A DNA stretch of 64,000 nt from Flagellimonas maritima (lineage in GTDB: Bacteria; Bacteroidota; Bacteroidia; Flavobacteriales; Flavobacteriaceae), in assembly GCF_003269425.1 (NCBI RefSeq), contig NZ_CP030104.1, positions 2,041,501 through 2,105,500 on the forward strand. The letters run 5' to 3'. The position numbers and the translations under genes are program-made. Positions 2,757 through 26,393 of this stretch are shown here, in pieces (the first letter of the stretch is position 1; each line of letters opens with the position of its first letter). The notes beneath the pieces were generated by a model that saw nothing but the letters and a program-made list of their open reading frames with translations, was not told where the DNA came from and ran no database searches.

Positions 2757-3025
2757 GGATTCTTAGTGATGTGTATTTATTCTTTTAGAAATCAGTAGAT
2801 GGTTACCTATTGAAATTTATGGTTTTTCAACAAATGTCAGATTAAAGCTGTCTTTGTCGACAAACAGGCGCAATTGAAACCTACTTTGGACGGACGAACA
2901 GTTCTCGACTGCGCTCGAACCGACAATATTGAATATTTTAAAAATTTGATAATCAATTCATTATAAATTATTTTCAGTACGTATTTATCTACTGAACTCT
3001 ATACTCTTTTTTTGATAGGCTGAAG
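2757..3025. other. Intergenic stretch without a gene
   Basis: No credible coding region or RNA gene is seen on either strand between tex and the GIY-YIG cassette. The only recognisable structure is one hairpin repeat unit at 2901-2920. Confidence 0.6.
2901..2920 (-). repeat. Hairpin repeat unit, short form, solitary
   Basis: Arms GTTC and GAAC are perfectly complementary and enclose TCGACTGCGCTC, the reverse complement of the family core GAGCGCAGTCGA. The core is identical to the two copies bounding the GIY-YIG cassette at 3026-3418. It is inverted relative to the copy at 3026-3050, about 105 bp away. Confidence 0.85.
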
Positions 3026-3050
3026 TGTCATATCGAGCGCAGTCGAGATG
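3026..3050 (+). repeat. Left inverted repeat of GIY-YIG cassette 1
   Basis: Contains core GAGCGCAGTCGA in forward orientation flanked by ATC and GAT. It pairs with 3394-3418 with a single mismatch over 25 bp. Confidence 0.9.
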
Positions 3051-3057
3051 TTGTACA

Positions 3058-3375
3058 CTAATCATCCGGTTGATATTTTGAGTGTGTAGCATTTCGGCAT
3101 TCGGCCAAAATTTTTAGTAGATTGAAATCTCCGCTTGCTAAAGCTAGCTTCTTTTTTGCACTCCATTTTTTGATTTTCTTTTCAAAATAAATTGCTTGTA
3201 TCACATTATTGAATTCTTGTTTGAAAATCAGTTGTACGGGTCTTCTTTTATAAGTAAAGCTTTGTGGTTTCAATCCTTTTTGATGTTCTTCGAATCTTCG
3301 ATTGAAGTCATTGGTGATTCCTGTGTAGGTTGAACCATCGGAACATAACAAGATGTAGACATAATATCTGAACAT
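3058..3375 (-). CDS. Single-domain GIY-YIG endonuclease-like protein
   Basis: The 105-residue product is one GIY-YIG domain of the small UPF0213/URI type. Visible landmarks are VYI near the N-terminus, YTG about ten residues later, ITND, an Arg pair followed by EEH, and a Glu in YFEKKIKKW that fits the metal-binding catalytic position. GIY-YIG domains cut DNA using one divalent metal; the substrates of these stand-alone proteins are mostly unknown. The gene is not part of a housekeeping operon but sits alone between near-identical inverted repeats, and a related gene at 24320-24616 sits in the same arrangement. I infer that it either mobilises or is carried by this repeat family. It could also be an ordinary repair-type nuclease that happens to lie between repeats. 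Confidence 0.9.
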   Translation of the reverse strand: MFRYYVYILLCSDGSTYTGITNDFNRRFEEHQKGLKPQSFTYKRRPVQLIFKQEFNNVIQAIYFEKKIKKWSAKKKLALASGDFNLLKILAECRNATHSKYQPDD

Positions 3376-3393
3376 TCAACTTTTTTCAGCATG

Positions 3394-3418
3394 CATCTCG
3401 ACTGCGCTCGATGTGACA
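3394..3418 (-). repeat. Right inverted repeat of GIY-YIG cassette 1
   Basis: Reverse-orientation copy of the hairpin unit (core TCGACTGCGCTC between CATC and GATG), 20 bp from the metG stop codon. It matches 3026-3050 at 24 of 25 positions when inverted. Confidence 0.9.
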
Positions 3419-3438
3419 TACATATACAATTATTGGAA

Positions 3439-5595
3439 TTAATTTATACCCTCACCATTCCCAACTCCATCCTCATCTGGGTTCACAAATACCAATTTTC
3501 CTTCTTTGTTCTCCGTCATCAAAATCATCCCCTCACTTTCAACCCCACGTAATTTTCTAGGTGCCAGATTTACCAAAACGGTTACTTTTTTGCCTATAAT
3601 TTCTTCAGGTGTAAAACTCTCTGCAATTCCTGAAACAATGGTTAGGGTATCTAAGCCCGTATCCACTTTTAACACTAAAAGTTTATTGGCTTTCGGCATT
3701 TTTTCTGCCGCTATGATGGTGCCTACTCGCATATCCAGCTTCGTAAAGTCATCAAAGGTAATGGTGTCTTTTTGTCTTGCAATTTCTTTTTCCATTTGAC
3801 TTGTGCTGAGCTCTGTCGAAGCATTCGCCTTTTTGGTAGCTTCAAGTTTTGCCAATTGCACTTCAATTTCTTTGTCCTCCACTTTACGGAACAACAATTC
3901 ACTTTTATTGATTTGATGTCCCGATTGGATAAGGGTTTCTTCTTTTTCAATAGTACTCCAAGAAGACTCGAAAGTGTTTTTTGTGCTATTTTCGGTATGG
4001 TCGCTGAGCCTTTCGACTTTGCTCAAGACTGGCGTAGTGGAAGCGATATTGAGTATGTTTTTAAGCTTTTTGGATGTAAACGGCAAAAAAGGTTCGCTCA
4101 AAATTGCTAAACCAGTAGCAATCTGAAGTGCAACGAACATCACTGTTTTGGTACGTTTTTCATCAGTTTTAATGAGCTTCCAAGGCTCTTCATCGGCCAA
4201 ATACTTATTGCCCAATCGCGCCAAGTTCATTAATTCTTGACTTGCTTCCCTAAATCTATAGCGTTCCAGGGAACTGGAAATAAGCGCTGGAAAATTCCGT
4301 AAAGACTTCAGCGTTTCTTTGTCAATATCGTGGAATTCATCTGGGTAAGGAATTGCACCGTCATAATACTTATGGGTCAGAACCGCCACACGATTTATAA
4401 AATTGCCAAAAATGGCAACGAGTTCGTTATTGTTTCTCGCCTGAAAATCCTTCCAAGTAAAATCGTTATCCTTTGTTTCAGGGGCGTTGGCAGTCAATGT
4501 ATAGCGAAGCACATCTTCCATACCTGGAAATTCCTCCAAATACTCGTGTAGCCAAACCGCCCAATTTTTGGATGTTGATAGCTTGTTGCCTTCTAGGTTT
4601 AGAAATTCATTTGCAGGTACATTTTCCGGTAAGATAAAGTCACCATGTGCCTTAAGCATACTTGGAAAGATAATACAGTGAAAAACAATGTTGTCCTTAC
4701 CGATAAAGTGAAGCAGTTTACTCTCTTTATCTTTCCAATAGGGTTCCCAGTCCCTTCCTTCTCTTTGTGCCCATTCCTTTGTTGAAGAGATATATCCAAT
4801 GGGAGCATCGAACCAAACATAGAGCACCTTTCCTTCGCCACCTTCAACAGGTACGGGAATTCCCCAATCCAGATCGCGCGTAACGGCACGTGGCTTTAGA
4901 CCGTCATCTATCCAAGATTTACATTGCCCGTAGACATTGGGTTTCCAATCGTTTTTGTGGCCTTCCAAAATCCATTTTTTTAAAAAATCTTCATAACGGT
5001 CCAATGGTAAAAACCAATGTTTGGTCCTTTTCAATATTGGGATTGCTCCTGTTATCGTAGATTTTGGATTGATTAGATCAGTAGCGTTTAGGGATGAACC
5101 ACAATTTTCGCACTGATCCCCATAAGCCTCTTCATATCCGCATTTTGGACAAGTACCCGTAACAAATCGATCTGCCAAAAACTGCTTGGCTTCATCATCA
5201 TAAAGTTGTTCCGTAACCTCTTCTATAAAATCTCCTTGATGATATAGTTTTTCAAAGAAATCCGATGCGGTTTTATGATGAATTTCTGCCGATGTACGGG
5301 AATAATTATCAAAGGAAATTCCAAAATCAACAAAAGACTTTTTAATAATTTCATGGTACCTGTCAATAATTTCCTTTGGGGTAACGCCTTCTTTTTTGGC
5401 CCTCATGGGGATCGCCACTCCATGTTCATCGCTACCGCAGATAAAAGCTACATCTTTCCCCTGCAATCTTTGGTATCGCGCGTAGATATCCGCAGGGACA
5501 TAAACCCCGGCCAAATGACCAATATGGATGGGGCCATTGGTATAGGGCAGCGCTGCGGTAATGGTATATCTTGATGATGATGAAGTCTGAGACAT
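3439..5595 (-). CDS. metG: Methionyl-tRNA synthetase with C-terminal tRNA-binding domain
   Basis: Charges tRNA-Met with methionine in the cytosol. Class I landmarks are visible: HIGH at residues 24-27, a zinc knuckle with CPKC and CENC pairs near 148-167, and the KMSKS-type loop KLSTSK near 338. A C-terminal EMAPII/Trbp111-like OB fold from about 617 ([14 protein letters not shown]) binds tRNA and mediates dimerisation. The linker between the anticodon-binding helices and the OB fold is unusual: two units of the dispersed hairpin repeat are read in frame (residues about 517-532, [13 protein letters not shown], and 591-598, ASTELSTS). Because they lie in a flexible linker they should not disturb catalysis. 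The gene is monocistronic or nearly so, with GIY-YIG cassette 1 directly downstream. Confidence 0.97.
3802..3825 (+). repeat. Hairpin repeat unit, short form, in frame inside metG
   Basis: Core GAGCTCTGTCGA with arms TGTGCT and AGCATT; only the inner four bases of each arm still pair, so this copy is decayed. It is 24 bp long, exactly eight metG codons. Confidence 0.65.
4000..4047 (+). repeat. Hairpin repeat unit, long form, in frame inside metG
   Basis: A 36-nt interior runs from GAGCCTTTCGACTTTGCTC to GGCGTAGTGGA between arms GTCGCT and AGCGAT; the five inner bases of each arm are perfectly complementary. The 48 bp equal sixteen metG codons. The interior aligns with the two long-form copies inside mfd. 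Confidence 0.85.
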
Positions 5596-14560: not shown

Positions 14561-17500
14561 TTAAGATACGGCTTCACGTTTTATAGACAAGGGCTCTAAT
14601 GCCTTCAGGGCCTTTTCCACACTGGTAATTGCTTCAAAAACCAACAGCAATCGCAATCCGTTTCGAGTTTGCTTTTCTTTCAGCTTGCATTGTAGTGGAT
14701 GGCTTTGCACGTATTGCAAAACCCTGGTAAACGTATCTGTTTGATAAAATGGAGATTGTTGGTCGGATAAAAAATAACCGATGAATTTGTTCTTCTTCAG
14801 GATTACTTTTTCCAATCCTATGCTATTTGCAATCCATTTAATACGAACCGAGTTGAACAAATCAACAGCTTCAATGGGCAATTCGCCAAATCGGTCAACC
14901 AGCTCCGCTTCAAACTTGTTCAAGCCTTCTTCGTTTTCAATAGTGTTCAGTTGGGTATATAGATTTAAACGTTCCGTGATGTTATTGATATAGTCATCGG
15001 GAAAAAGCAGTTCAAAATCGGTGTCCAATTGGGTTTCTTTCACAAAGACCTTCGGTTTTTCGCCTTCCACTTCCTCATACAGCTCTTTAAACTCATTTTC
15101 TTTGAGTTCATCAATGGCTTCTGCCAATATTTTCTGATAGGTTTCAAAACCGATTTCATTGATAAATCCACTCTGTTCACCGCCCAATAAATCGCCTGCC
15201 CCACGAATCTCCAAATCTTTCATTGCAATATTGAATCCACTACCAAGCTCGGTAAACTGCTCTAGGGCCTCAATACGTTTTCGGGCATCGGGAGTCATGA
15301 CCTCGAAAGGGGGAGTAATAAAATAACAGAACGCCTTTTTATTGCTTCTTCCCACCCGACCACGCATTTGATGCAGGTCGCTAAGACCAAAATTATTGGC
15401 GTTATGGATAAAAATGGTGTTGGCATTGGTGACATCCAAACCACTTTCAACAATAGTGGTCGAAACCAGCACATCAAACTCTCCGTTCATGAAGGCGAGC
15501 ATTAAGCCTTCCAATTTTTTCCCTTCCATCTGCCCATGACCGATTCCGATTTTGGCATCGGGTACCAATCGCTGGATCATCCCAGCAACTTCTTTAATAT
15601 TTTCAATTCGATTATGGATGAAAAAGACCTGTCCGCCACGTTGGATTTCGTACGAAACCGCATCACGGATAACTTCTTCATTAAAACCAATGACCCTACT
15701 TTCAATAGGGTAACGATTAGGTGGTGGCGTTGTAATTACCGAAAGGTCACGAGCGGCCATCAAACTAAATTGTAGCGTACGGGGAATGGGCGTTGCCGTT
15801 AAGGTCAATACATCTACATTTTCCTTAATGGACTTTAACTTGTCCTTTACCGAAACCCCAAATTTCTGTTCTTCATCAACAATAAGCAGTCCCAAATCCT
15901 TGAATTGTACACTTTTGTTCACCAATTGATGGGTGCCGATGATGATATCGATTTTGCCTTGGGCCAAGCGTTCGTGAATCTCACGTTTTTCTTTCGCAGT
16001 TCTAAATCGGTTGAGGTAATCTACCGTAACGGGCATTTCTTTTAAACGCTCCTTGAATGTTCTGGAATGTTGAAAGGCAAGAATGGTGGTCGGTACCAAA
16101 ACGGCCACCTGTTTTCCATTGTCCACAGCTTTAAAAGCGGCACGAATGGCAACCTCGGTTTTTCCAAATCCAACATCGCCACAAATTAAGCGGTCCATTG
16201 GGCGCTCGCTTTCCATATCTTTTTTTACATCTTGTGTGGATTTTTCTTGGTCGGGCGTATCCTCATAAATAAAAGATGCTTCCAGTTCATGCTGTAAGTA
16301 ACTGTCGGGAGCATACTGGAATCCTTTTTCCAATCGGCGCTTTCCATAGATTTTAATAAGGTCGAAGGCAATTTTCTTGACCCTGCTTTTGGTTTTGTCC
16401 TTTATTTTTTTCCAAGCTCCAGAACCAAGTTTATAGATTTTGGGTGGTGCACCATCCTTTCCATTGAATTTTGAAATCTTGTGGAGTGAGTGAATGCTCA
16501 CGTAGAGAATATCACGCTCACCATACATTAGTTTGATGGCTTCTTGCTTTTTTCCTTCAACGTCTATTTTTTGTAATCCCCCGAACTTACCAATTCCGTG
16601 GTCAATATGGGTAACATAGTCACCAATTTCCAGTTTGTTCAGCTCTTTGAGGGTTATGGCCTGTTTTTTGGCATAGCCGTTTTTAAGATGGAATTTATGG
16701 TAGCGCTCAAAAATTTGGTGGTCCGTATAGCAGACCAATTTTAAATCGTGGTCAATAAATCCTTGGTAGAGTGGAAAAACCAAAGTTTTGTAATGAACAC
16801 TTCGACTACGCTCAGTGTCCAAAACATCCTTATTTTTTTTTTGGTGGCTGACCCTTTCTGCTCCACTCAAGACAGGCATAGTCGAAGCCACGTCATCAAA
16901 AATATCATGGAACCGTTTAGCCTGTTGTTCTGATGCGCAGAAAATGAAGTTTGTAAAACCTGCTTCATGATTCTCATTTAGATTTTCAATGAGCAGGTCG
17001 AATTTCTTATTGAAAGACGGTTGGGGTTTTGTATTGAATATAATTTCGTCACTTCTGCCACGCCGGTCTTGAGCGAAGTCGAAAGGCTCAGTGACCGATT
17101 CCTGCTTTTTTTGGTGGTTGAGCGAAGTCGAAACCACATTGCCCGATACGGACACAGCCGAAGTCCCAATTTCCACCAAACAAAAATCCTTCAATTGTTC
17201 TTTCAATACGCTTGAATTAAGGAACAATTCCTCTGGCTTCAAATGTTTTATGTCTTCGCCGAGTTTTTTAAAACTTTCTTTAGCTTTTTCAAAAAATGAA
17301 TCGACTCGGGCATATACCAAATCCAATCGCTTTGAAAATATGATGGTTTCCGGTGAAATATATTTTAAAAAGCTTTCCCTTGATTCCTGTAAAAATTTAT
17401 TTTCCACATTGGGGATAATTGTAATACGCTTCACCTTTTCCGTGGATAGCTGTGTCTCTACATCAAAAGTTCGAATACTCTCGACTTCATCGCCAAAAAA

Positions 17501-18148
17501 CTCGATACGGTACGGTTCATCATGCGAAAAAGAAAAAACATCCATGATACCCCCACGAACCGAAAACTCACCTGGCTCTGTTACAAAATCCACTCGCTTA
17601 AACTGATATTCAAAAAGTACTTCGTTCAGAAAGTCAAGTGAAAGCGTGTCGCCCAACTTAATTTTCAAAGTGTTTTTATCCAACTCCTTGCGAGTGACCA
17701 CCTTTTCAAAAAGTGCATCAGGATACGTTACGATGACCGCGGGTTTTTTTCTGGAATTGATACGGTTCAATACCTCTGCTCGCAGCAATACATTTGCATT
17801 GTCCGTTTCCTCAATTTGGTAGGGCCGACGATAACTGCCAGGATAAAAGAGCACTTCGTTTTCGCCTATCAACTGTTCTAGGTCGTTTAGGTAATAAGCA
17901 GCCTCTTCTTTGTCGTTCAAAAGTACCAAGAACGGTAATTCACTATTCTTGAAAACGCCTGAAATCAAAAAAGACAAAGCGGAACCAGTAAGGCCTTTTA
18001 GATGGATATGGTGTCTTTTGTTAAGATCAGACTCCTGTGGCCGGTTATTGGATGTAGCCGAAGTCGCTGAAAATTGAGCAATAGCGGATTGCAGTTTTCC
18101 TACTTGGGAAGACTGTTCAAATAATTGTAGCACGGACGATTTGGTCAA
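14561..18148 (-). CDS. mfd: Transcription-repair coupling factor
   Basis: A 1195-residue protein with Mfd order: UvrB-like N-terminal modules (LTGSALSFLISGVFKNSELP; EPGEFSVRGGIMDVFSF), the RNA polymerase-interacting domain near residue 486 (LEIGDYVTHIDHGIGKFGG), a RecG-type translocase with GDVGFGKTEVA near 661 and DEEQ near 756, and a TRCF C-terminal domain from about 1010. Mfd pushes stalled RNA polymerase off lesions and recruits UvrA. Two stretches between the N-terminal modules and the polymerase-interacting domain, residues 338-367 and 420-451, are in-frame composite repeat insertions (VVSTSLNHQKKQES..., DTERSRSV). Both fall in linker regions away from the motor. The insertions share peptides with those in the ligase gene. 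Confidence 0.97.
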   Translation of the reverse strand: MTKSSVLQLFEQSSQVGKLQSAIAQFSATSATSNNRPQESDLNKRHHIHLKGLTGSALSFLISGVFKNSELPFLVLLNDKEEAAYYLNDLEQLIGENEVLFYPGSYRRPYQIEETDNANVLLRAEVLNRINSRKKPAVIVTYPDALFEKVVTRKELDKNTLKIKLGDTLSLDFLNEVLFEYQFKRVDFVTEPGEFSVRGGIMDVFSFSHDEPYRIEFFGDEVESIRTFDVETQLSTEKVKRITIIPNVENKFLQESRESFLKYISPETIIFSKRLDLVYARVDSFFEKAKESFKKLGEDIKHLKPEELFLNSSVLKEQLKDFCLVEIGTSAVSVSGNVVSTSLNHQKKQESVTEPFDFAQDRRGRSDEIIFNTKPQPSFNKKFDLLIENLNENHEAGFTNFIFCASEQQAKRFHDIFDDVASTMPVLSGAERVSHQKKNKDVLDTERSRSVHYKTLVFPLYQGFIDHDLKLVCYTDHQIFERYHKFHLKNGYAKKQAITLKELNKLEIGDYVTHIDHGIGKFGGLQKIDVEGKKQEAIKLMYGERDILYVSIHSLHKISKFNGKDGAPPKIYKLGSGAWKKIKDKTKSRVKKIAFDLIKIYGKRRLEKGFQYAPDSYLQHELEASFIYEDTPDQEKSTQDVKKDMESERPMDRLICGDVGFGKTEVAIRAAFKAVDNGKQVAVLVPTTILAFQHSRTFKERLKEMPVTVDYLNRFRTAKEKREIHERLAQGKIDIIIGTHQLVNKSVQFKDLGLLIVDEEQKFGVSVKDKLKSIKENVDVLTLTATPIPRTLQFSLMAARDLSVITTPPPNRYPIESRVIGFNEEVIRDAVSYEIQRGGQVFFIHNRIENIKEVAGMIQRLVPDAKIGIGHGQMEGKKLEGLMLAFMNGEFDVLVSTTIVESGLDVTNANTIFIHNANNFGLSDLHQMRGRVGRSNKKAFCYFITPPFEVMTPDARKRIEALEQFTELGSGFNIAMKDLEIRGAGDLLGGEQSGFINEIGFETYQKILAEAIDELKENEFKELYEEVEGEKPKVFVKETQLDTDFELLFPDDYINNITERLNLYTQLNTIENEEGLNKFEAELVDRFGELPIEAVDLFNSVRIKWIANSIGLEKVILKKNKFIGYFLSDQQSPFYQTDTFTRVLQYVQSHPLQCKLKEKQTRNGLRLLLVFEAITSVEKALKALEPLSIKREAVS
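16796..16891. repeat. Composite inverted-pair repeat inside mfd, copy 1
   Basis: 96 bp (32 codons). A short unit at 16796-16819 (arms AACACT/AGTGTC, core TCGACTACGCTC) is followed by a 24-bp T-rich spacer and an inverted long unit at 16844-16891 (arms GTGGCT/AGCCAC, 36-nt interior). Coding-strand peptides are VASTMPVLSGAERVSH, QKKNKDVL and DTERSRSV. Confidence 0.88.
17048..17137. repeat. Composite inverted-pair repeat inside mfd, copy 2
   Basis: 90 bp (30 codons). A long unit at 17048-17095 (arms GTCACT/AGTGAC) is followed by an 18-bp T-rich spacer and an inverted short unit at 17114-17137 (arms GTGGTT/AACCAC, core GAGCGAAGTCGA). Arms are perfectly complementary in both units. Coding-strand peptides are VVSTSLNH, QKKQES and [16 protein letters not shown]. 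Confidence 0.9.
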
Positions 18149-24289: not shown

Positions 24290-24311
24290 ATTCCGAGCGC
24301 AGCGAAGGAAT
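24290..24311 (+). repeat. Left inverted repeat of GIY-YIG cassette 2
   Basis: Five-base arms ATTCC/GGAAT around core GAGCGCAGCGAA. Immediately upstream of the helicase ATG. Confidence 0.88.
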
Positions 24312-24319
24312 CTGTTATT

Positions 24320-24616
24320 TTAGTCTGCTTGCCATTCCAAAGATAAATCCTTCCAATCTGGATTTATAGAGGTTATCAAATCTTCTTTTCTTTTTCTATT
24401 GCCTGATTTTAACTGTTTTTCTCTGGCAAATACATCTTTTATCGTATCAAATTCTTCAAAATATACCAATAGATTACAATTATATCTTTTTGTAAACGAA
24501 TTTGAGTATTTACCATTCTTATGTTCACTCGTGCGTCTTCGTAAATCATTGGTTGCCCCAATGTATAGTACGGTTTTATTCTTGTTGGTTAATATATAGC
24601 AATATCCTTTTGTCAT
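24320..24616 (-). CDS. Single-domain GIY-YIG endonuclease-like protein
   Basis: The product from the ATG at 24616 (MTKGYCYILTNKNKTVLYIG) has 98 residues. It shows YCYI and LYIG, the GIY and YIG signatures, then ATNDLRRRTSEH with the conserved Arg and His, and a Glu in FAREKQLKSGNRK for metal binding. The frame is open to an ATG at 24697, but the additional 27 residues precede the conserved domain start and look like translated repeat. It is the second such gene in the window with the same flanking inverted repeats, yet its sequence is only distantly similar to the one at 3058-3375. I infer association with the repeat element; any role in DNA mobility is unproven. Confidence 0.88.
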   Translation of the reverse strand: MTKGYCYILTNKNKTVLYIGATNDLRRRTSEHKNGKYSNSFTKRYNCNLLVYFEEFDTIKDVFAREKQLKSGNRKRKEDLITSINPDWKDLSLEWQAD

Positions 24617-24707: not shown

Positions 24708-26393
24708 TCAGGTTTCTTTGTTAAGGGATTCCTTCGCTGTGCTCGGAATCAGTGCCTTCAAATCCTCCAAAGTGTTTGCTTCTTCAATCTTCTTGTCTTT
24801 TCTCCATCTCAATATACGAGGGAATCTGGTAGCCACACCGCTCTTGTGCCTTTTTGATAGCGCAATACCTTCAAATGCAATTTCGAAAACATGGTGGGGT
24901 GTCACACTCCGTACAGGGCCAAAACGTTCAAGCGTATTTTTCTTTATCCAGGCATCCACTTGTCTAAATTCGGCATCGGTCAATCCTGAATATGCTTTGG
25001 CGAAAGTCACCAGTTCTTTTTCCCCACTTTCTTTTTCTTGCCATAACGCAAATGTATAATCGGTAAAGAGGTTACTTCGGCGACCATGGCCGCGCATGGC
25101 ATAGGTGAGCACCGCATCAATGGTCAATGGGTCGACTTTCCATTTCCACCAATCTCCTTTTTTACGTCCTACTTGATAGTGGGATTTGTTTCTTTTTAAC
25201 ATCAATCCTTCGCTTCGCATTTCTCTGGCGCGGTTTCGTTCTTGTGCTACTTCATCCCAAGTATTAAACTGGTGTCGTTCGGAAAGAAGGAGGGGTAGGT
25301 CACTTCGGCTCCGCTCAGTGACCTGATTTGTATTGTTTTGGTGGTTTTGCGTAGCGGAAACCACAGTATTATAAAGGTTTTCCAATAATGCCCTACGCTC
25401 CAAAAACGCTTTGCTTCTAATATCTTGACCTTCCCATTCGAGCAGGTCATATACTTTTAAGACCACAGGAGTTTTTTCTAAAAGTGCTTTAGAAACTGTT
25501 TTTCTGCCAATACGGGTCTGTAAATCATTAAAAGTGCCGATTTCACCATTAGGATAGGGGAGTAATTCCCCATCCAGAACAGTTCCGTTAGGAATTGCTT
25601 TTATGAATTTTCCGAATTCTGGATATTTATCCGTCACCAATTCTTCTCCACGACTCCAAACAAAAATTTCGTTGTTCCTGATGATGACCTGACAACGGAT
25701 GCCGTCCCATTTATGTTCAATGGACCAGTCTTTCACATCTCCTAGTTCTGAAACTTCATTTTCAATCGCATAGGCCAGATAAAATGGATAAGGTTTGGAG
25801 AGATAATCGCTTTCGTTCTCTTTCAGTATTAAATCTTCAAAAGTTATGGTGTTTGGGTCCCAGTTACCCATGAGTTTGTACGCCAATACATCTTCGTCGA
25901 TCTCGGTTGCTTTTGAAAGTGCTTTGGTCATTAGTTTTTGACTGACTCCAATGCGAAATCCGCCCGTAATCAGTTTAGTAAAAACAAAGCGTTCGTAATA
26001 ATTGAGTTGACTCCAGTTTTTGAAGAGATAAGACTTTTTTTCTTCATCGGTCTTTAATTTGAGCCAAATCATTTCTTCCAAAAAGTCAGTCAAGCTTTTG
26101 TCCGTGGATTTTTTTCCTTCTGGGATTATCAGTGCAATGGTCTCCGCCAAATCACCAACAATATGGTAACTTTCCTCGAACAACCATAAGGGAATGTTTG
26201 CCAATTCCGCTGCCCATTCTCTGAGCAAGGTAGTGTTGACGGGACGCGGTGGTCTGCGATGTGAGAGTATCGCAATTGTCCAAATCTTGTCTTTGGCGCC
26301 TGCCTTTTGAAAATAGTCTGCCAAAGCTTGGACTTTTCGGTTGGTCTTGTTGGTACTGTCCAGGGTTTTGATCAGGCTAGCAAAATTTTTCAT
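24708..26393 (-). CDS. ATP-dependent DNA ligase, ligase-associated repair cluster
   Basis: A 561-residue ATP-dependent ligase. The adenylation motif EHKWDGIR places the catalytic lysine at 228; other nucleotidyltransferase motifs (DGELLP, SEGLMLKR, WWKWK) follow in order, with an N-terminal DNA-binding domain and C-terminal OB fold. It seals nicks with ATP and belongs to the PdeM-helicase-ligase-exonuclease set. Two oddities: residues 344-365 (VVSATQNH, QNNTNQ, VTERSRSD) are an in-frame composite repeat inside the adenylation domain, and the last 13 residues (IPSTAKES and on) are encoded by the right repeat of GIY-YIG cassette 2. The start overlaps the exonuclease stop by four bases (ATGA). 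Motifs appear intact, so activity is likely but untested. Confidence 0.94.
   Translation of the reverse strand: MKNFASLIKTLDSTNKTNRKVQALADYFQKAGAKDKIWTIAILSHRRPPRPVNTTLLREWAAELANIPLWLFEESYHIVGDLAETIALIIPEGKKSTDKSLTDFLEEMIWLKLKTDEEKKSYLFKNWSQLNYYERFVFTKLITGGFRIGVSQKLMTKALSKATEIDEDVLAYKLMGNWDPNTITFEDLILKENESDYLSKPYPFYLAYAIENEVSELGDVKDWSIEHKWDGIRCQVIIRNNEIFVWSRGEELVTDKYPEFGKFIKAIPNGTVLDGELLPYPNGEIGTFNDLQTRIGRKTVSKALLEKTPVVLKVYDLLEWEGQDIRSKAFLERRALLENLYNTVVSATQNHQNNTNQVTERSRSDLPLLLSERHQFNTWDEVAQERNRAREMRSEGLMLKRNKSHYQVGRKKGDWWKWKVDPLTIDAVLTYAMRGHGRRSNLFTDYTFALWQEKESGEKELVTFAKAYSGLTDAEFRQVDAWIKKNTLERFGPVRSVTPHHVFEIAFEGIALSKRHKSGVATRFPRILRWRKDKKIEEANTLEDLKALIPSTAKESLNKET
24728..24749 (-). repeat. 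Right inverted repeat of GIY-YIG cassette 2
   Basis: Reverse-orientation copy (core TTCGCTGTGCTC, arms ATTCC/GGAAT) encoding ligase residues from Ile549 (IPSTAKES) close to its C-terminus. Confidence 0.88.
25299..25364. repeat. Composite inverted-pair repeat inside the DNA ligase gene
   Basis: 66 bp (22 codons). Short unit 25299-25322 (arms GTCACT/AGTGAC, core TCGGCTCCGCTC), 18-bp T-rich spacer, inverted short unit 25341-25364 (arms GTGGTT/AACCAC, core TTGCGTAGCGGA). All arms are perfectly complementary. Same order, arms and spacer type as the mfd composites. Confidence 0.9.

Follow-up and report, generated by a model that had tools for sequence, protein, structure and literature searches.

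The window, i.e., the whole 64,000-nucleotide stretch of Flagellimonas maritima DNA analysed here, contains two small GIY-YIG nuclease genes, each enclosed by inverted repeats (cassettes 1 and 2), and further copies of the cassette 1 repeat, which is of the REP type. The features are as follows.

2903..2925, minus strand: third REP copy, within a ~220-bp repeated element at 2778–3001
3026..3050, plus strand: left REP of cassette 1, tag TGTCA outward
3058..3375, minus strand: GIY-YIG nuclease gene of cassette 1, 105 aa, complete ORF, Pfam PF01541
3394..3418, minus strand: right REP of cassette 1, tag TGTCA outward (TGACA on the plus strand)
16802..16813, minus strand: untagged REP core inside ORF 14561–18148
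17071..17082, plus strand: untagged REP core inside ORF 14561–18148
17120..17131, plus strand: untagged REP core inside ORF 14561–18148
24290..24317, plus strand: GAGCGCAGCGAAGGAATC-type left arm of cassette 2, lacking a clear GTCA tag
24320..24616, minus strand: GIY-YIG nuclease gene of cassette 2, 98 aa from ATG, ORF
24722..24749, minus strand: right arm of cassette 2, lying within the end of the adjacent ORF 24708–26393

The initial annotation had described nearly perfect inverted repeats around a complete 105-residue GIY-YIG gene, and its coordinates proved exact: the arms at 3026–3050 and 3394–3418 are complementary at 24 of 25 positions, with 7 bp between stop codon and arm and 18 bp between arm and start. 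At 40 random window sites of similar geometry, which served as a control for these arms, the best 25-mer match was 16/25. The core of the right REP lies 29 nt from the end of a metG-like ORF. The cassette 1 ORF matched the Pfam GIY-YIG family at 62 bits (cut-off 22.6), and Y6, Y17, G19, R27, H31, and E64, the GIY-YIG residues with a catalytic role in known GIY-YIG enzymes, were invariant in a 14-row alignment (A1).

A second GIY-YIG gene of the same layout had been pointed out 21 kb away. Its inverted arms were confirmed (24290–24317 and 24722–24749, complementary at 25 of 28 positions), but its repeat has no further copies in the genome: the longer pattern CCGAGCNNAGCGAAGGA matched only twice genome-wide, at the two arms themselves, and the cassette 2 repeat as a genome-wide family was left unsupported. 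Altogether, the genome holds eight PF01541 matches, consisting of the two cassettes, three long frames (598, 463, and 461 aa), and three further small genes, the last three showing no REP flanking. One of these three, L034, belongs to a tandem pair of copies of another small GIY-YIG gene, 344 bp apart and without a REP (L033 and L034, G000:C1:972190–972746). The second copy of this pair is interrupted by a stop, and each copy adjoins a tRNA-like fragment (by eye) beside an intact tRNA-Val; the matching terminator-like palindromes on both sides of L034 are explained by its tandem duplication.

Six occurrences of the 12-base core of the cassette 1 repeat, GAGCGnAGTCGA, were counted in the window, where shuffling gave a mean of 0.01; the one-contig genome of 3.77 Mb has 55, compared with two of the reversed pattern. 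The core had been said to recur widely in the window. This held for the number of cores, the third copy at 2903–2925 included, but three of the six lie in coding sequence without a GTCA tag; some REP copies, including those in coding sequence, lack the tag. For the structure of the repeat, 36 of the 55 copies were analysed, namely the six in the window and those of 30 fetched loci. Stem positions 1–4 formed Watson–Crick pairs in 35, 34, 33, and 31 of these copies (shuffle maxima 27, 27, 17, and 21), with two to four kinds of Watson–Crick pair at each position, and from position 5 onward no position of the 36 copies rose above its shuffles. Since the stem varies freely yet stays complementary, the repeat is a hairpin, i.e., a REP. 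GTCA or GTCG was present exactly at −8 in 14 of the 36 copies. Furthermore, the genome has 11 neighbouring core pairs within 100 bp (0.09 expected), and six of these, accounting for 12 of the 55 copies, are in the orientation of the cassette arms (REPIN layout). When folded as DNA, the REPIN of one relative (L211) reached −22 kcal/mol (z −6.4), and each arm of cassette 1 taken alone showed only weak folding (z −1.1 and 0.6).

Two further observations concern the surroundings of these repeats. REP-like cores at 3807–3820, 4012–4025, and 16802–17131 are located within methionyl-tRNA synthetase-like and Mfd-like reading frames (names by eye), where they encode peptides such as VLSKVERL. The ~220-bp element at 2778–3001 has imperfect inverted ends (2786–2820 and 2967–3001, 74%) that surround a REP, and a 77% copy of it is found at G000:C1:562032–562232; it may be a MITE carrying the REP.

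The cassette 1 protein was matched in 96 of 149 Flavobacteriaceae genomes. Inverted repeats within 250 bp of the gene and with a score of at least 14 were found at 22 of 29 fetched loci, a set that excludes the window's own locus, and at 11 of the 38 testable loci among a further 40 fetched, compared with 0/84 sham places. Similarly, a REP-class motif was present on both sides, within 300 bp, at 24/29 and 28/40 loci (sham 0/112). The higher yield of the motif test comes mostly from one of the REP classes defined below, class b, which has shorter exact arms.

The same layout was seen across bacteria. A scan of named GTDB genomes gave at least 578 relatives, and the best 80 of these were analysed, 74 of them with enough flank. 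Among these 74 loci, inverted repeats (score of at least 14) surrounded the gene in 55, compared with 2/367 sham places; ordinary ORFs reached this score in 5 of 172 cases. Hairpins with a (C/T)GTC tag were located on both sides in 53/74 (sham 1/367), outward on both sides in 45/74 (sham 0/367), and on any side in 69/74 (sham 29/367). At 64 of the 74 loci, either inverted repeats or both-side tagged hairpins were detected, and these positives came from 11 named phyla: beta 15/19, gamma 17/19, alpha 8/10, and Pseudomonadota without class 3/3; Myxococcota 4/5, Planctomycetota 3/3, Nitrospirota 3/3, and unplaced 4/4; and single loci from seven more phyla. Chloroflexota stood at 0/1. The remaining 10 of these 74 showed neither feature. 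The tags of the 55 inverted pairs from this set were inward in nine and undecided in five. In Flavobacteriaceae, the nearest REPs were tag-outward on both sides at 17 of 23 loci of class a (defined below). Plasmids also carry the cassette. A protein search matched 32 plasmid records, 14 of which were fetched, and 10 of the 14 loci scored 14 or more (two Shinella, Sinorhizobium, Rhizobium CIAT894, Neorhizobium, Azospirillum, Novosphingobium, two Sphingobium, and Aeromonas). In Planktothrix and Spirosoma, the pairs were weaker and, as read by eye, TGTCA-tagged; no flanking pair was seen in the Rhizobium tumorigenes and Photobacterium loci of the 14 fetched.

Could REPs simply gather around any small gene? 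Most REPs do lie between genes according to the available text of a survey of CGTC-tagged REPs (PMC3733652), and such an intergenic bias, or chance, would place some of them beside a nuclease gene. However, the sham places (2/367) and ordinary ORFs (5/172) fall far below the 55/74 loci from the best 80 of at least 578 relatives, and a separate clade of small GIY-YIG genes in Flavobacteriaceae (L271, L275, L276, and L278), an internal negative control, has no REP class on both sides. These controls, together with the random sites, ruled out chance flanking, as the initial annotation had anticipated in calling a chance association unlikely, and we give the intergenic-bias explanation almost no probability. 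The pairing of arms across loci is a weak control because common CGTCATTCCCGC repeats match between species (95/300 at score 14). It had also been suggested that the link would be incidental if homologues mostly lacked flanking copies; most loci proved to be flanked, both in the named genomes (55/74) and in Flavobacteriaceae (22/29).

The nuclease and its REPs also vary in step. Flavobacteriaceae REPs were assigned by their flanks alone to class a (GAGCGnAGTCGA), class b (TCTCGATAC), or class c (GAGC[CT][TG]GTCGA), and the labels were placed on a tree of 59 nuclease proteins, 10 of the 69 having been left out for stops or short length; this tree is built on few columns and has many open forks. 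The three classes required two changes over the 49 labelled rows, which is the minimum for three states (ten rows carry no label), and class b forms one side of a 19-row branch with a support of 93. Five genomes (G013, G120, G132, G138, and G148) each have both class-a and class-b cassettes, and each cassette is flanked by its own REP; therefore, the host genome does not explain the match between nuclease and REP. The base pair adjoining the core in the class-a stem, either C-G or T-A, changed once over 19 rows, compared with at least four changes in 200 shuffles. In a separate observation within G013:C15, two GIY-YIG genes with identical protein (L255 and L256) lie 1 kb apart in a class-b REP array.

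Similarly, among 63 loci with tagged REPs on both sides, drawn from 90 (the best 80 relatives and 10 plasmid loci), the left and right REPs of one locus differed by a mean of 1.32 bases compared with 3.65 between loci (0/2000 permutations). Protein and REP distances in the 63 loci were correlated with a Mantel r of 0.55, a value uncorrected for host kinship (0/2000 permutations).

REP abundance followed the nuclease as well. A strong nuclease match to cassette 1 (E 1e-30 or better) was found in 26 genomes, and each of these has seven cores or more (median 31.5), compared with 33 of 123 other genomes, the seven-core cut having been chosen after seeing the counts; a rank test of core counts against strong match gave p 3e-11. 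One genome, G080, has 54 REP cores, and its GIY-YIG proteins are one of UvrC size and two long ones, with no small gene. Therefore, REPs can be present without the nuclease. The earlier concern that repeat-bearing genomes might often lack the gene was thus justified in part, by G080 and by the 33/123 genomes that hold at least seven cores without a strong match. REPs without the gene fit repeats that have outlived their enzyme, yet they are a real exception.

Such genomes raise the question of whether another enzyme, e.g., a RAYT, spreads the REPs while the GIY-YIG gene is a passenger. G080, with REPs and no nuclease, would be expected in that case, and the available part of PMC6006769 reports that Bacteroidetes have relatives of RAYT whose repeats are atypical. 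On the other hand, a passenger would hardly match nuclease clade to REP class with the minimum number of changes, and the available text of PMC3733652 describes no transposase gene regularly associated with CGTC repeats. We consider the passenger explanation very improbable. Taken together, the flanking, the matching of REP class to nuclease, and the REP counts make us highly confident that the small GIY-YIG nuclease and the (C/T)GTC-tagged REPs around its gene are partners.

We then compared the cassette sites among relatives of the same genus. At the tex-metG junction (gene names by eye), where cassette 1 resides, 16 of 19 same-genus relatives were compared. Ten of the 16 have an inverted REP pair without the gene; four of these pairs keep both cores by pattern, 33–35 nt apart, and in the other six, one arm or both have decayed or been interrupted. 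No REP pair was present in the other six relatives, one of which has another 1.5-kb insert, also coreless. The right core of the relatives is 25–26 nt from the metG match (five measured); in the window, this distance is 29 nt. Most simply read, a REPIN site at tex-metG was taken over by the gene in this lineage. The arms of cassette 1 differ in sequence from those of the relatives at this junction; therefore, arms may have been converted, or the event may have been more complex.

The cassette 2 junction was comparable in 6 of 19 relatives; in the other 13, no ligase-like gene was found at the neighbouring position. Of the six, three are empty (14–23 bp); a fourth has a related cassette, with a REP visible on just one side, a fifth a class-b REP pair, and the last a different pair tagged with TGTCA. 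Depending on the species, this one helicase–ligase junction (L281, L283, and L285) thus holds a GIY-YIG cassette or REP pairs of two other types, as if it were a hot spot for tagged REPs. At a third, carboxylase site, the cassette is common to 5 of 19 relatives; a further relative has a remnant of the gene there, and others have REP scars. The G153 cassette was absent from all nine relatives examined, seven of which have ~80 bp there and two another insert. In Azospirillum, A. lipoferum has a cassette between sufB and sufC that the four relatives examined lack. A GIY-YIG cassette whose REPs differ from those of A. lipoferum is also located, as read by eye, at this position in Shinella sp. PSBB067 (L078 and L079), and sufB–sufC is a recurrent insertion site. 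No target-site duplication was identified at the Azospirillum sufB–sufC site or at the sites in the genus, where occupancy varies.

A gene with inverted ends, sites that are empty in relatives, and REP pairs that could be deletion derivatives would also be expected of an ordinary insertion sequence or MITE family, in which the REPs would be terminal repeats and the unit would move by cut or copy and paste. However, the genome has 55 REP cores and two cassettes, each end is itself a tagged hairpin, and no target duplication was seen. Furthermore, the joining of strands is not a known activity of GIY-YIG enzymes. An insertion sequence of this kind is, in our judgement, improbable.

What, then, does the nuclease do? 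Its solved relatives by sequence profile are UPF0213 structures, UvrC and, weakly, SLX1. SLX1 is titled a structure-specific endonuclease, which fits recognition of a hairpin or cruciform by the nuclease. A viral scan with a single protein found no relative. In the defence library, neither cassette 1 nor the Aeromonas protein had a padloc match, and cassette 2 had two, both marginal and partial. In the phage library, cassette 1 had no match; cassette 2 and the Aeromonas protein matched weakly, in some cases to homing endonucleases. Ten ortholog pairs of the carboxylase-site cassette had pN/pS values of 0.09–0.23, which indicates purifying selection.

This selection, the sharing of the carboxylase-site cassette by 5 of 19 relatives, and the profile matches to UPF0213, UvrC, and SLX1 are also what a host-serving, structure-specific enzyme (like SLX1 or UvrC/Cho) would show, one that processes REP cruciforms or repairs DNA without spreading REPs. 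A repair role is suggested for small COG2827 proteins, in Caulobacter, in the available part of PMC1839093. On the other hand, related species carry the cassettes at different sites, the REP class tracks the nuclease and not the genome, and a housekeeping enzyme has no need of flanking sites. A host-serving role of this kind is possible, but we think it unlikely. The initial annotation had regarded nuclease and repeat as one selfish system. One system is strongly supported; the word selfish goes further than these data, in which the gene is under purifying selection and one site is common to five related species.

We therefore favour the reading that the nuclease is the dedicated enzyme of its flanking (C/T)GTC-tagged REPs, a counterpart of RAYT that probably spreads them by cutting and repair. 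The nuclease would recognise its own tagged hairpin, either in single-stranded DNA or as an extruded cruciform, and would nick or cut near the tag. Host repair would then copy a REP, a REP pair (REPIN), or occasionally the gene-bearing cassette into place. In contrast to RAYT, GIY-YIG enzymes have no known covalent DNA intermediate; therefore, the spread should be homing-like, by break and repair. For the copying mechanism itself, nicking and templated repair, our confidence is evenly divided. We see a similarly balanced case for a general form of this proposal, namely that small GIY-YIG nucleases across bacteria constitute a second, enzymatically unrelated REP-spreading system, recognising and multiplying tagged REPs and REPINs, with the gene homing into the REPIN spacer.

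The initial annotation had been aware of no formal description of such a system, and we found none: the literature searched, with preprints and most subscription journals outside its scope, contained no paper linking GIY-YIG genes to REPs. The available text of the survey of CGTC-tagged REPs (PMC3733652) reports them in alpha-Proteobacteria, Bacteroidetes, and others, names no associated transposase, and includes repeats of Neisseria (dRS3), Rickettsia, and Wolbachia in the CGTC superfamily; the term GIY-YIG has a count of 0 in it. Term counts likewise gave no mention of GIY-YIG in PMC6006769 or PMC12306157, and the available part of PMC9465073 gives GIY-YIG and RAYT as separate accessory genes, drawing no link there. 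CGTC/TGTC-tagged REPs are widespread, and the published survey left open which enzyme moves them. If our reading is true, the missing enzyme of the CGTC superfamily would be supplied, and REP–enzyme partnerships would have arisen with two unrelated enzymes. A cognate nuclease makes the question of the REP-moving enzyme directly testable. It also suggests a likely role for many genes annotated as "GIY-YIG nuclease family" or "UvrC-like", whose function is now unknown or guessed to be repair.

How does the system compare with those already described? It shares with GIY-YIG homing endonucleases the nuclease domain and a gene placed within its presumed target, here a REP pair, but no intron or intein host gene was seen at the cassettes, which are flanked by repeated hairpins. 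Homing endonucleases cleave site-specifically, and their gene interrupts a target left intact in empty alleles; at tex-metG, four of the ten gene-free REP pairs keep both cores, and the arms of cassette 1 differ from those of the relatives. It shares size and domain with the small UPF0213/COG2827 proteins (PDB 1zg2 and 1ywl), the best solved relatives by sequence; these are named hypothetical proteins in the PDB, and no repeat link was found for them in the literature searched. The available part of PMC1839093 gives the role of small COG2827 endonucleases as unknown, with repair proposed. As in the CGTC-tagged REPs of PMC3733652 (available text), a CGTC or TGTC tag stands unpaired at one end of the palindrome and inverted dimers occur. 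Those REPs occur mostly as inverted dimers, a layout seen here in 12 of the 55 core copies. They have an 8–9-bp stem and a 4–5-nt loop, whereas the window class has a bulged, shorter stem with four covarying pairs next to a conserved core; a proteobacterial REP copy folds with an 8-bp stem, a 4-nt loop, and an unpaired tag, as in CGTC-tagged REPs.

The closest parallel is the RAYT/REPtron, in which TnpA_REP is associated with GTAG-tagged REPs and cuts single-stranded REP at the tag. In the available text of PMC2817692, RAYTs are described by their inverted flanking REPs, by co-evolution with the REPs, and by correlation with REP abundance. The GIY-YIG cassettes resemble them (PMC2817692 and PMC6006769, available parts) in that one small gene is enclosed by two inverted REPs, further REPs, also in inverted pairs, are present at other places of the genome, enzyme and REP co-evolve, and the REP number tracks the presence of the enzyme, with exceptions here such as G080. 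However, the enzyme here is a GIY-YIG nuclease (Pfam PF01541 only), whereas RAYT is an HUH tyrosine (Y1) transposase, and the tag is (C/T)GTC, mostly followed by A, whereas that of RAYT is GTAG. Since the three RAYT traits hold but the enzyme and the tag differ, the system works like a RAYT system but is not one.
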